Position numbers and translations under genes: made by a program. From Corallococcus macrosporus DSM 14697 (GTDB lineage: Bacteria > Myxococcota > Myxococcia > Myxococcales > Myxococcaceae): 64,000 nucleotides of DNA. The notes below the pieces were generated by a model, which was not told the origin of the DNA, searched no databases, and saw only the letters and a list, made by a program, of their open reading frames with translations. Within the stretch, counting starts at the first letter, position 1. The number at the start of each line of letters is the position of its first letter. Shown piece after piece: positions 40,901-46,900 of the stretch. Location: NCBI RefSeq assembly GCF_002305895.1, contig NZ_CP022203.1, positions 4,256,501 to 4,320,500 of the forward strand, read 5' to 3'.

Positions 40901-43900
40901 ATGATCGGGTGCTTCCTGGACCTCGTCGTGCTGCGCGCGTCCGTCGATGGGGCATCGCGCTTCCGGGAGCTGCTGGGGGCGGCGCGGGAGGGCGTGCTGG
41001 CGGCGTTCGCTCACCGAGGCGTCCCCTTCGAGCGGCTGGTCGAGGCCATCCAGCCCACGAGGGATCCGTCGCGGGCGCCGCTGTTCCAGGTGCTCTTCGT
41101 GCTCCAGCCGGAGCCCGGCGCCGGCCTCGCGCTGCCTGGGCTGGAGGCGCGCCGCGTGGAGGTGGACCCCGGCGCCACGCCGTATGACTTGACGCTGTCG
41201 CTGGCCCGGAGCGCCGAGGGGCTGGGCGGCTGGCTGGAGTACGCCTCGGACCTGTTCGACGCGGACACCGCCGCGCGGCTGGTGGCGAGGCTGGAGGTGC
41301 TCCTGGAGGCCGTCGTCGCGGACCCGGAGCAGCGCGTCGGCGCGCTGCCGCTCCTCCCCGAGGCGGAGCGGCGGCAGGTGCTGACCGGATGGAACGCCAC
41401 GCGGACGGACTTCCCGGAGACGTGCGTCCACGCGCTCATCGAGGCCCAGGCCCGGCGCACGCCGGACACCGTGGCCGTGGTGTGTGGTGACGAAGCCCTG
41501 ACGTACCGCGAGCTGGACCAGCGGGCCAACGCCGTGGCGTGGCGGCTGCGCGAGCAGGGCGTGGGCCCGGAGCGCGTCGTGGGGCTCTTCGCGGACCGCT
41601 CCGTGGACCTGGCGGTGGGGCTGCTGGGCATCCTCAAGGCGGGCGGTGCCTACCTGCCGCTGGACCCGTCCTATCCCGAGGCCCGCCTCGCGTTGATGCT
41701 GGAGGACTCCGGCGCCGCGGTGGTGCTGGCGCACCGGCACCTGGCGGGAGCCCTTCCTGCTGGGCGTCGGACGGTGGTGACGCTGGACGTGCGGGCGCTG
41801 GCGGACGGGCCGCCTCCCATCGCCGTGGCGCCGGGCAACCTCGCCTACGTCCTCTACACCTCGGGCTCCACGGGCAGGCCCAAGGGCGTGCTGATTCCCC
41901 ACCGCAACGTCGCCAACTTCTTCACGGGGATGGACGCGCGCGTGGGGGCGGCGCCGGGGACGTGGCTGGCGGTGACGAGCGTCTCCTTCGACATCTCCGT
42001 GCTGGAGTTGTTGTGGACGCTGGCCCGAGGCTTCAAGGTCGTCGTGCAGGGCGAGCAGGGGGCCCTGGGCGCCGCGCCTCGCCGCGGGGGCCGGACGCGC
42101 CGCGCGCCGCTGGGGTTCAGCCTCTTCTACTTCGCGGCGGATGAAGGCGCGCCGGGCGCGGAGCGCTACCGCCTGTTGCTGGAGGGCGCGCGCTTCGCGG
42201 ACCGCCACGGCTTCCAGGCCGTGTGGACGCCGGAGCGCCACCTGCACGCCTTCGGCGGGCTCTATCCCAACCCGTCGGTGACCAGCGCGGCCATCGCCGC
42301 CATCACCGAGCGCGTGGCCATCCGCGCGGGCAGCGTCGTCCTGCCGCTGCATCACCCCGTGCGCGTGGCCGAGGAGTGGGCGCTCGTCGACAACCTGTCG
42401 AAGGGACGGGTGGGCATCTCCGTGGCGCCGGGCTGGCACGCGAACGACTTCGTGCTCGCGCCGGAGCGGTACGAGGACCGCCGCGAGCTGGCGCGCGGTG
42501 CGCTGGACACCGTGCGGCGGCTGTGGCGCGGTGAGGCGCTCCGCTTCGCCAATGGCGCGGGTGCGTCCACCGAGGTCCGCCTCCGGCCGAGCCCCGTGCA
42601 GCGCGAGCTGCCCGTGTGGCTCACCGCCGCCGGCAATCCCGACACCTTCCGCGAGGCGGGGAGGCTGGGGGCAGGTGTCCTCACGCACCTGTTGGGACAG
42701 CGGTGGGAGGAGCTGGAGGCGCGTATCGCGCTCTACCGCGAGGCGTGGCGTGAGGCGGGGCACGAGGGCGAGGGCCACGTGACGCTGATGCTCCACACCT
42801 TCGTGGGGCAGGACGTGGAGCGGGTGCGCGAGACGGTCGAAGGGCCGCTGCGGCGATACCTGAGCGACTCCGCGGACCTGATGCGCGGCCTGGGGCGGAC
42901 GCTGGGCGTGGACCTGGACCCGGCGTCGGTCCGCCCGGAGGACCTGGACGCGCTGGTGGGGCGCGCCTTCGGGCGCTTCTTCGAAGGCGCCGGGCTCTTC
43001 GGGACGCCGCGCACCTGCCGCGACCAGGTGGCGCGCATCGAGGCGCTCGGGGTGGATGAGGTCGCGTGCCTCATCGACTTCGGCGTGGACACGGATGAGG
43101 TGCTCGCCAGCCTGCCGGCGCTGGACGCCGTGCGGCAGCGCTGTGAGCGGGACTTCCGCCTCCAGTCGCAGGGCGACGACGCGGTGCCCGCGCAGCTTCG
43201 CCGGCACGGAGTCACCCACCTGCAATGCACGCCGTCCCTGGCGCAGGCGTTGCTTCTGGAGCCCGGCGCGCCGGGGGCGCTCGCGGGCCTGGAGCGGCTG
43301 CTGGTCGGTGGCGAAGCGCTGTCCGAGGCGCTGGCGGCCCGGCTGCGCGGCACCGTGGGCGGCGCGCTCCTCAACATGTACGGCCCCACGGAGACCACCA
43401 TCTGGTCCGCGTCACACGCCGTGCGGGAGGCCGCGGGGCCGGTGCCGATCGGGACGCCGATCGCCAACACGTCGCTGTACGTGCTGGACGCCGCGCTGCG
43501 CCCGGTGCCCGTGGGCGTGCCCGGTGAGCTCTACATCGGCGGCGCCGGCGTCGCCCGGGGCTACCACGCGCGGCCGGAGCTGACGGCGGAGCGCTTCCTG
43601 CCGGACCCCGTGGCGTCGGAGGCGGGCGCGCGCATGTATCGGACGGGCGACCGGGCGCGCTGGCGGGCCGACGGGGCGGTGGAGTTCCTGGGCCGGGTGG
43701 ACCACCAGCTCAAGGTCCGCGGCTTCCGGGTGGAGCCGGGTGAAGTCGAAGCCGTGCTGGCCCGTCACCCCGCCGTGGCGCGGGCCGTGGTGGTGGCGCG
43801 AGAGGACCTGCCCGGGAGCGCCCGGCTGGTGGCGTACCTGGTGCCTCGGCTGGAGGCGTCACTCTCCGGGGACGCGCTGCTGGCCTACGCCCGGCGCGCC

Positions 43901-46900
43901 CTGCCCGAGCACATGGTGCCCTCGGCGTGGGTGACGCTGGAGGCCCTCCCGCTGACGCCCAACGGGAAGGTGGACCGGAAGGCGCTGCCCGCACCGGAGG
44001 GCGTCCGGGACGTGGGCCGGGAGTACGTGGCGCCTCGGACGGAGACCGAGCGCAGGCTGGCGGAGCTGTGGGCCTCGCTCCTGGGTGTGCCGCGGGTGGG
44101 GGCCGAGGACGACTTCTTCGCCCTGGGCGGCCACTCGCTGCTGGCCACGCGCGCCGCGTCGCGGATTCGCGAGGCCTTCGGGGTCGACCTGCCCCTGCGC
44201 GAGCTCTTCGAGTCGGCTTCGCCCGCGGCGCTGGGGGCTCGTCTCGACGCGCGCCGTCTGCGTGCGTCGGGGGTCCCCGCGCTGCTGGCCCGCTCGCACG
44301 AAGGCGCGTTGCCCCTGTCCTTCGCGCAGCAACGCCTGTGGTTCCTGGAGCAGCTCGAGCCGGGTGGCGCCGCGTACAACGACGCGGTGGCGGTCCGGGT
44401 GGAGGGGGCGCTCGACGTGCCCTTGCTGGAGCGCTGCCTGCGGGAGGTGGTCCTCCGGCATGACGTGCTCCGCGCCACCTTCCATGAGGAGGACGGGGCG
44501 GCGTCCTGGCGCGCCCACGCCGAGCCCCGGCTCGCCCTCACGCGGGTGGACCTGACGGCGGGGGAGGCCGCCGCGCGGGCGGAGGCGCTGTCCCGGCGGT
44601 TGGAGGCGGAGTCATTGCGGGCCTTCGACCTCGGGGCGGGGCCGCCGCTCCGGGTCATGCTGGCCCAGGTGGGCGCGCGTGAACACGTGCTCCTGCTCGT
44701 GCTGCATCACCTGGTGACGGACGGCGCCTCCATGGGCGTGCTGGTGCGCGAGGTGGCCGCGCTCTACCGCGCCTTCGCCAGGGGCGAGCCCTCGCCGCTG
44801 CCCGCGCTGCCGCTCCAGTATGTGGACTACGCGGCGTGGCAGCGCGACTGGCTGCGTGGCGAGGCGCTGGAGGCGCAGCTCGCGTACTGGCGGGCGCGGC
44901 TGGAGGGCGCGCCTCGGGCCTTGGAGTTGCCCACGGACCGTCCCCGCCCCGCCGTGCGCGGCAGTCGGGGCGTGAGCCGCGAGGTGTGCCTGGGGGCGGA
45001 GCTGACACGTGGGTTGAAGTCGCTGGCCCGGCGCGAGGGCGCCACCCCCTTCATGGTGCTGCTGGCGGGCTTCTCCGCGCTGCTGTCCCGTCACGCCGGG
45101 CAGGACGACCTGTGCGTGGGGACGCCCGTGGCGGGCCGGGACCGGACCGAGCTGGAGGGGCTCATCGGCTGCTTCGTCAACACGCTGGTGCTCCGCGTGT
45201 CGTTGGCGGGCGCGCCTTCCTTCCTCGAGCTGATTGGCCGCGCGCGGGAGACGGTGCTGGGTGCCTTCGCGCACCAGGACGCGCCCTTCGAGGAGCTGGT
45301 GAAGGCGCTCCAGCCCGAGCGTGACCTGGGCCGCAGCCCGCTCTTCCAGGCCATGCTCGTGATGCAGGAGGATCCGCTGCCGGAGCTGACGGTCCCCGGG
45401 CTGCGGCTGAGCGTCCAGCCGCAGCCGAGCCACACGGCGAAGTTCGACCTGCGGCTCATCCTCACGGACACGCCCGAGGGCTTCTCCGCGAACCTGGAGC
45501 TGAGCGCCGACCTGTTCGAGCCCGACACCGCGTCCCGCCTGCTGGAGCACCTGCGCGTGCTGCTGGAGGCGGGCGTCCGCTCGCCGGAGCAGCGGGTCTC
45601 AGACCTGCCGCTGATGTCTCCGGCGGAGCGCCACCAGGTCCTGGTGGCGTGGAACGACACGCTCCGGCCGCGACCGGAGGCGGCCGTCCTGCATCGCCTC
45701 ATCGAAGCGCAGGTGGACCGCACGCCGGATGCCGTGGCCGTGAGCTTCGAGGGAGACGCGCTCACGTACCGGGAGCTGGACCTGCGCGCCAATCAGCTCG
45801 CGCGCTTCCTTCGGGCCCGAGGCGTGGGGCCGGACACGCGAGTCGCCCAGTGCACGGAGCGCTCGTTGGAGATGGTGGTGGGGTTGCTGGGGGTGCTCAA
45901 GGCGGGGGGCGCCTATGTGCCGTTGGAGCCGGAGTACCCGCGCGAGCGCTTGGCGTTCATGCTCGCGGACGCGGCGGCGCCCGTGTTGCTCACGCAGGCG
46001 CGGCTGGCCGCGGGCCTGCCACACGGTGGCGCGGCGGTGGTGTGCCTGGACTCGGAGTGGGGCGTGATTTCGCGCGAGCCCGACACGCGGCTCGACGTGG
46101 CGGTGGAGGGGAGCGGGCTGGCGTACGTCATCTACACCTCCGGCTCCACGGGGCGGCCCAAGGGCGTGATGAACACGCACGCCGCCATCTGCAACCGGCT
46201 CCGCTGGATGCAGGAGGCCTACGGACTCGACGCGAGCGACCGGGTCCTCCAGAAGACGCCCTTCAGCTTCGACGTCTCCGTCTGGGAGTTCTTCTGGCCG
46301 CTGCTGACGGGGGCCCGCCTGGTGATGGCGCGACCCGGGGGGCACCGGGAGCCCGCGTACCTGACGGAGACCATCGCTCGCGAGCGCATCACCACGCTGC
46401 ACTTCGTGCCCTCCATGCTCCGGCCCTTCCTGGAGGAGCCCGGCCTGGAGGCGTCCTGCGCCAGCCTGCGGCGGGTGTTCTGTAGCGGTGAGGCCCTGCC
46501 CGCGGAGCTGCGGGACCGCTGCTTCTCGCGCCTGGGCGCGGCTCTGCACAACCTCTACGGCCCGACCGAGGCCGCGGTGGACGTGACGGCGTGGAGCTGC
46601 GAGCGCGAGGACCGGCGCCCCGTCGTGCCCATTGGCCGCCCCATCGCGAACACGCGGCTGTACGTGCTGGACGCTCTGCTGCGCCCCGTCCCGGTGGGGG
46701 TGCCGGGAGAGCTGTACATCGGTGGCGTGGCCCTGGCGCGCGGCTACTGGCGCCGGGCGGCGCTGACCGCGGAGCGCTTCCTGCCGGACGCCTTCGCGGC
46801 CACACCGGGGGCGCGGATGTATCGCACGGGCGACCAGGCCCGCTTCCTGGCGGACGGCGCCATCGAGTACCTGGGGCGCCTGGACGACCAGGTGAAGGTG

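Follow-up and report, generated by a model that had tools for sequence, protein, structure and literature searches.

In the Mta and Mel pathways, glycine held on its carrier is hydroxylated at the α carbon, the resulting carbinolamide splits, and a thioesterase (TE) clears the glyoxylate; the glycine-specific adenylation (A) domains of MtaG and MelG carry a monooxygenase (MOx) between motifs a4 and a5 (PMC10204066). The mechanism is repeated in PMC11342130, which also places MOx domains in the glycine A domains of 38 corallorazine-like pathways. In SolF, by contrast, a flavin monooxygenase (FMO) between a8 and a9 acts on glycine and the hydroxyl stays: solanimycin B has an acyclic α-hydroxyglycyl residue from the glycine module with its FMO, whereas solanimycin A skips the hydroxylation, a step that may take place or not according to how long the chain stays on the module (PMC10204066). 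Acyclic α-hydroxyglycine is described in the same source as very rare in natural products. A further relative, the OX domain of PuwE, has been proposed to hydroxylate a polyketide or fatty acyl chain (PMC4219810). Here we describe a module of this kind at the very start of an assembly line in Corallococcus macrosporus DSM 14697 (genome of a single contig, NZ_CP022203.1, 8,973,512 bases), in a 64,000-nucleotide stretch at positions 4,256,501 to 4,320,500 that we call the window and whose numbering we use. On balance we take the region to be the initiation of a large lipopeptide line of nonribosomal peptide synthetase (NRPS) and polyketide synthase (PKS) modules, in which an N-acyl-α-hydroxyglycyl peptide would be retained and extended as the main form.

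The start unit of N1

The line begins with N1, an open frame of 5737 residues. Its domain map was built with seeds drawn mostly from N1 itself; the seed for the peptidyl carrier protein (PCP) missed the acyl carrier protein (ACP), which was identified by eye. The other domains are a fatty acyl-AMP ligase (FAAL) and condensation (C) and epimerisation (E) domains.

37931..55144, plus strand: N1, FAAL-ACP-C-A(Gly,MOx)-PCP / C-A-PCP-E / C-A-PCP / C-A-PCP (open frame, domain map, codes)
38024..39694, plus strand: FAAL loading domain (solved relatives 7r7g, E 6e-169, and the FAAL 3kxw, E 4.5e-131)
about 39790..40010, limits approximate, plus strand: ACP, carrier serine in FGLDSL (read by eye)
40067..41356, plus strand: C domain predicted to join fatty acyl group and glycine, motif HHLASDG (domain map, motif)
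41426..42052, plus strand: glycine-module A domain, N-terminal part to motif A4, FDISVLELLW (domain map, code alignment)
42101..43144, plus strand: MOx, a luciferase-like flavin monooxygenase that interrupts the A domain between A4 and A5 (TIGR04020, 522.6 bits; 6ket)
43196..43993, plus strand: glycine-module A domain, C-terminal part from just before A5, NMYGPTETT, to A10 (domain map)
44030..44236, plus strand: glycine-module PCP, FFALGGHSLLA (domain map, motif)
44309..45619, plus strand: second C domain, which would take the (oxidised) acyl-glycyl donor, HHLVTDG intact (domain map, motif)
45689..48751, plus strand: A (DVWHFSLAWK, Ser-like)-PCP-E, residue 2 (domain map, code)

The opening is that of a FAAL-initiated lipopeptide NRPS, with a homologue of solved FAALs followed by an ACP and a C domain. 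The MOx exceeds the TIGR04020 cut-off (secondary-metabolite luciferase-like monooxygenase, 244.45 bits) by a wide measure, and it interrupts the A domain at the site found in MtaG and MelG, not at the a8/a9 site of SolF. The code of this A domain, DILQLGMIWK by alignment, is the MtaG/MelG-type glycine code and predicts glycine loading. In its position, however, the module resembles that of SolF: the PCP is followed directly by a C domain predicted to accept its product, and C-A-PCP-E stands where a TE closes the MtaG and MelG lines. With further modules in the same protein, a terminal, MtaG-like role is ruled out.

The initial annotation of this DNA had read FAAL-ACP-C-A-MOx-PCP, with the same code, at 41400-44130. 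The code letters agree with our alignment, and the domain map, TIGR04020 and the FAAL matches bear out the domains, but the MOx lies inside the A domain and not after it; the span likewise locates the module but not its limits, the PCP ending only at 44236 and the FAAL, ACP and C domains being left outside. Its further proposals, that the module takes glycine and oxidises the α carbon, are well supported by the literature on relatives: the identical code has been published for four MOX-bearing glycine A domains (PMC12283262), and MtaG, MelG and SolF all act on glycine (PMC10204066). That the oxidised glycine would be the first, fatty-acylated residue, as was also suggested, follows from the domain order.

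The nearest solved structure to the MOx is the PuwE OX domain of puwainaphycin biosynthesis (6ket, E 3.5e-118). An AlphaFold2 model of the A-MOx region (856 residues, 34 sequences; mean pLDDT 85.3, pTM 0.63) retrieves A domains as a whole in Foldseek, while its MOx part retrieves 6ket (TM 0.94 by target length, rmsd 2.2, 51% identity), the monooxygenase fold being the same; the pTM leaves the relative placement of the two parts uncertain. PuwE OX differs in its setting: it has an aminotransferase alongside, stands between the PKS and the NRPS modules, and is not embedded in an A domain (PMC4219810).

The start unit is conserved. Among 61 genomes searched with TIGR04020, at least 11 besides this one contain a matching frame, 4289 or 5733-5838 residues long; eight of these 11 N1-sized frames were examined which, with two named loci, make up the ten relatives compared here. 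All eight begin FAAL-C-A(DILQLGMIWK)[MOx]-PCP (the ACP was not scored there), and Corallococcus praedator CA031B (85%) and Archangium violaceum Cb vi76 (79%) have the same unit with the code DILQMGMIWK. The FAAL and Gly-MOx start unit is thus kept in 10/10 relatives while the neighbouring module varies, residue 2 being Ser-like in nine and Val-like in one (G002). The MOx is 82-93% identical between N1 and these relatives, with dN/dS of 0.08-0.24, comparable to the FAAL (0.09-0.20) and the A core (0.12-0.26), pointing to purifying selection. This constraint and the presence of the unit in all ten relatives argue that its order is not due to chance. The N1 MOx also keeps 55/55 near-invariant positions of a 132-sequence alignment which, together with purifying selection, rules out a decayed insert. 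As far as sequence can establish them, then, domain order, insertion site, code, conservation and purifying selection are secure; the parts of the unit are of known kinds, and their order is unusual and conserved.

Relatives of the monooxygenase

A scan of named genomes gave 581 related stretches, and the counts out of 80 below refer to the best 80 of these. The code DILQxGM[IV]W is found in 79/80, the remaining one being an incomplete sequence. The domain upstream of the A domain is formyltransferase-like in 54, a C domain in 16, a FAAL in six, and other or cut in four; where recognisable it is N-acylating, implying that glycine encounters such a domain no later than it encounters the MOx. 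Proteins of about 1550 residues that join a formyltransferase-like domain to A(Gly)-MOx-PCP are widespread (L015:6176-10840, minus strand, and the 54 loci just counted, of L067-L146); they often adjoin a gene for a ketosynthase-acyltransferase (KS-AT)-PCP protein of about 2150 residues, in Rhodobacteraceae, Rhizobiales and others.

Downstream, a KS-starting gene follows directly in 20/80 and a C-starting gene in two, and the module is internal, with a C domain after it in the same protein, in five (including L072, where a C-A-PCP stands between module and TE). These three arrangements add up to 27. In two, a TE stands immediately behind the module; this MtaG-like end is, by these sequences, a minority arrangement among the near relatives. 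A KS gene lies upstream in 25, and the locus is cut in two.

A MOx tree was computed from 136 domains, 132 after short or identical ones were removed. The 11 N1-type domains (support 0.999) and 21 stand-alone-type domains (0.999) form a joint clade (0.994). Supports of deeper branches are low in places. The stand-alone type is represented in this same genome by a FAAL-C-A(Gly)-MOx-PCP enzyme with no TE (L014:6351-12806, minus strand; G000:5583351-5589806), around which no other NRPS or PKS gene was found in the 49 kb read; an MFS transporter gene adjoins it, as in L069 and L070. These enzymes share the domain order and a sister MOx clade with N1, but end at the PCP and are not fused to further modules. 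Since they are among the nearest relatives, fatty acyl-glycine with a MOx is a recurring unit. L133 and L080, also modules preceded by a FAAL, belong to other MOx clades, which implies more than one origin or recruitment of the combination of FAAL and Gly-MOx. Elsewhere in the tree, 17 PKS-linked MOx domains in dead A domains (1.0) stand beside L016 (0.928), a C-A-MOx-PCP protein followed by a thioesterase-like sequence read by eye.

Two positions separate these groups. At N1 residues 1586 and 1644, glycine-type domains have His (105/109) and Leu (108/109), and PKS-type domains Asn (15/17) and Phe (16/17), so that we regard both as candidate specificity positions; the contrast omits six rows (L131, L134, L025, L045, L016, L046) that were cut by locus ends or placed elsewhere in the tree.

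Proposed oxidation and fate of the first glycine

The course that we propose, in which we infer the timing, the retention of the hydroxyl and the product, is as follows. The FAAL would activate a fatty acid and load the ACP, and the first C domain would join the fatty acyl group to PCP-held glycine. The embedded FMN monooxygenase would hydroxylate the α carbon of the N-acylglycine on the PCP, the next C domain would take the N-acyl-α-hydroxyglycyl group as donor, and the chain would grow to its full length before release by a TE. What reaches the end would depend on the relative rates, on the PCP, of hydroxylation, chain extension and splitting of the carbinolamide. Such a competition would yield a mixture, mainly the acyl-α-hydroxyglycyl lipopeptide, with some unhydroxylated congener and some fatty amide and glyoxylyl species. 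Both fates, a stable α-hydroxyglycine and a self-cleaving lipid cap, are chemically sound.

The architecture leans towards retention: the next module is in the same protein, 27/80 near relatives show one of the three downstream arrangements counted above, and solanimycin B offers an acyclic precedent. Module 4 of SolF is likewise internal, with an N-acylated glycine and an FMO, its chain continues through Ser, and solanimycin B keeps the α-hydroxyglycine; it differs in the a8/a9 insertion and the polyketide acyl group, and the section of the paper covered mentions no FAAL (PMC10204066). MtaG and MelG, from their published descriptions, share the glycine A domain with its a4-a5 MOx and the code, but there the line ends with a TE and an amide product, whereas here the module is the first after FAAL-ACP. 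Corallorazine-like gene clusters also place a MOx in the glycine A domain of a lipopeptide line, but as the second module of a bimodular line, with the lipid on dehydroalanine (PMC11342130). Several observations weigh against the proposed course. The only characterised a4-a5 modules, those of Mta and Mel, cleave, and the hydroxyl-retaining SolF has an a8/a9 FMO; the PKS-type relatives are evidence that a MOx can switch substrate; and 24/80 loci have no partner gene within the flank, an upper bound, since some flanks are down to a few hundred bases. Moreover, N2, the gene after N1, lies in two frames here, broken near 60153, but in one open frame in 8/8 relatives examined, and its last PCP reads GGQPE in place of GGxS, lacking the serine; the break could be genuine or an error of sequencing, and the line may be inactive in this strain. 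By its insertion site the module would be of the cleaving type, by its place in the line of the retaining type, and in our judgement the insertion site is to be read as ancestry rather than function.

Were the hydroxylated acyl-glycine instead to break apart while PCP-bound, in the manner of MtaG, the lipid would depart as a fatty primary amide and the glyoxylyl-S-PCP would be extended to a glyoxylyl-headed peptide. This is what the Mta/Mel-like insertion site and code would suggest, and a TE-less stand-alone enzyme with no NRPS or PKS partner found in the 49 kb around it would fit chemical release. We nevertheless consider it rather unlikely: Mta and Mel cleave in their final module, with no further one to draw off the chain, a KS gene adjoins the stand-alone relatives L069, L080 and L133, and the FAAL is conserved as much as the MOx, which would be odd if the lipid were always lost. 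It is unlikely, too, that we are dealing with a mobile cassette for acyl-glycine oxidation, the unit FAAL-ACP-C-A(Gly)-MOx-PCP acting as a nonribosomal analogue of peptidylglycine amidation. On its own, such a cassette would release fatty primary amides and leave a glyoxylyl thioester as an aldehyde-bearing starter for downstream NRPS or PKS modules; fused as here, it would give a lipid-shedding peptide.

Retention of the hydroxyl also presupposes that the MOx acts, and acts on glycine. That the step may be left out is known from solanimycin A (PMC10204066), but a passenger MOx, with glycine incorporated unchanged, seems distinctly unlikely for a domain that keeps all its near-invariant residues, is under purifying selection and is conserved in 10/10 relatives. 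Action on another group, for instance the fatty acyl chain or residue 2, at the α carbon, would accord with the proposal for PuwE OX, the closest solved relative (PMC4219810), and with a second MOx of this line, which sits after a PKS module; the location of the MOx inside a glycine A domain, with a glycine code in 79/80 loci, makes this improbable. We also considered an E domain after the Gly-MOx module of L132 as proof of a stereocentre; it may be vestigial, and the argument was dropped because LgrA also has an E domain after its glycine module.

The rest of the line and its surroundings

When the following stretches of the genome are joined, the line continues past the window through N2 and then N3.

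55179..59504, plus strand: first frame of N2, KS-AT-ACP-C, predicted to add one malonate extension (domain map)
60296..61345, plus strand: second MOx (MOx2) in a degenerate A domain, no PCP behind (TIGR04020, 520.4 bits; sequence)
61985..64000, on to 68236, plus strand: second part of N2, C-A-PCP-E-C-PCP (no serine), starting in the window (domain map, motifs)
68240-104056, window numbering: N3, 11 C-A-PCP modules and a TE (domain map, codes)
36231..37925, minus strand: ABC exporter of the cyclic peptide export family, transcribed away from the NRPS genes (TIGR01194, 465 bits, cut-off 286.2)

The predicted product would have about 16 amino acids and one malonate; a search of open-access literature turned up no known lipopeptide built to this design. 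We take the codes to give, in order, Gly (MOx), Ser-like (E), Ile/Val-like, Val, malonate (MOx2), Phe-like (E), then DTENVGTAVK (no assignment), Val, DAPQLGAVDK (no assignment), Val, Asp-like, five times Val, and Ala-like, the Gly reading being the one backed by literature. The initial annotation had overlooked this length and the MOx2, and its idea of an alkoxyglycine finds no support here.

The A domain around MOx2 has lost motif A3, and A5 to A10 are degraded or lost. The same arrangement, a MOx in a decayed A domain without a PCP after KS-AT-ACP-C, is found at L012 and L013 of this genome. MOx2 was assigned to the PKS-linked clade by elimination of rows elsewhere; its probable ancestor is a glycine-type module whose A and PCP functions were lost, and its probable substrate is the PKS-extended residue. 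The last module of N2 has no A domain in this genome or in G001, G006, G016, G018 and G024; it has one with a VDWV-type code in G002, G010, G020 and G022 and a VDWG variant in G012, codes that we presume to be β-Ala-like.

A close homologue of the exporter lies beside the N1 orthologue in G002, G010, G016, G022 and L067, and none at the TIGR01194 threshold beside that in G001, G006, G018 and G024. After N3 (G000:C1:4360839-4363753) stand a peptidase M19-like gene and a gene for a siderophore-interacting flavoprotein, which might supply reduced flavin. An MsnO8-family luciferase-like oxidoreductase (33545-34630, minus strand, 392.9 bits) lies beside a separate minus-strand PKS gene set.

For this family, the locus offers a conserved and genetically defined system, with a probably oxidised glycine as the first residue of the chain, in which the fate of a carrier-bound N-acyl-hydroxyglycine, kept or cleaved, can be addressed. 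The stand-alone enzyme in the same genome and the second MOx in the same line provide a direct test of how placement sets that fate. Finally, the A-domain codes by themselves would predict plain glycine, which is a warning for the reading of such lines.

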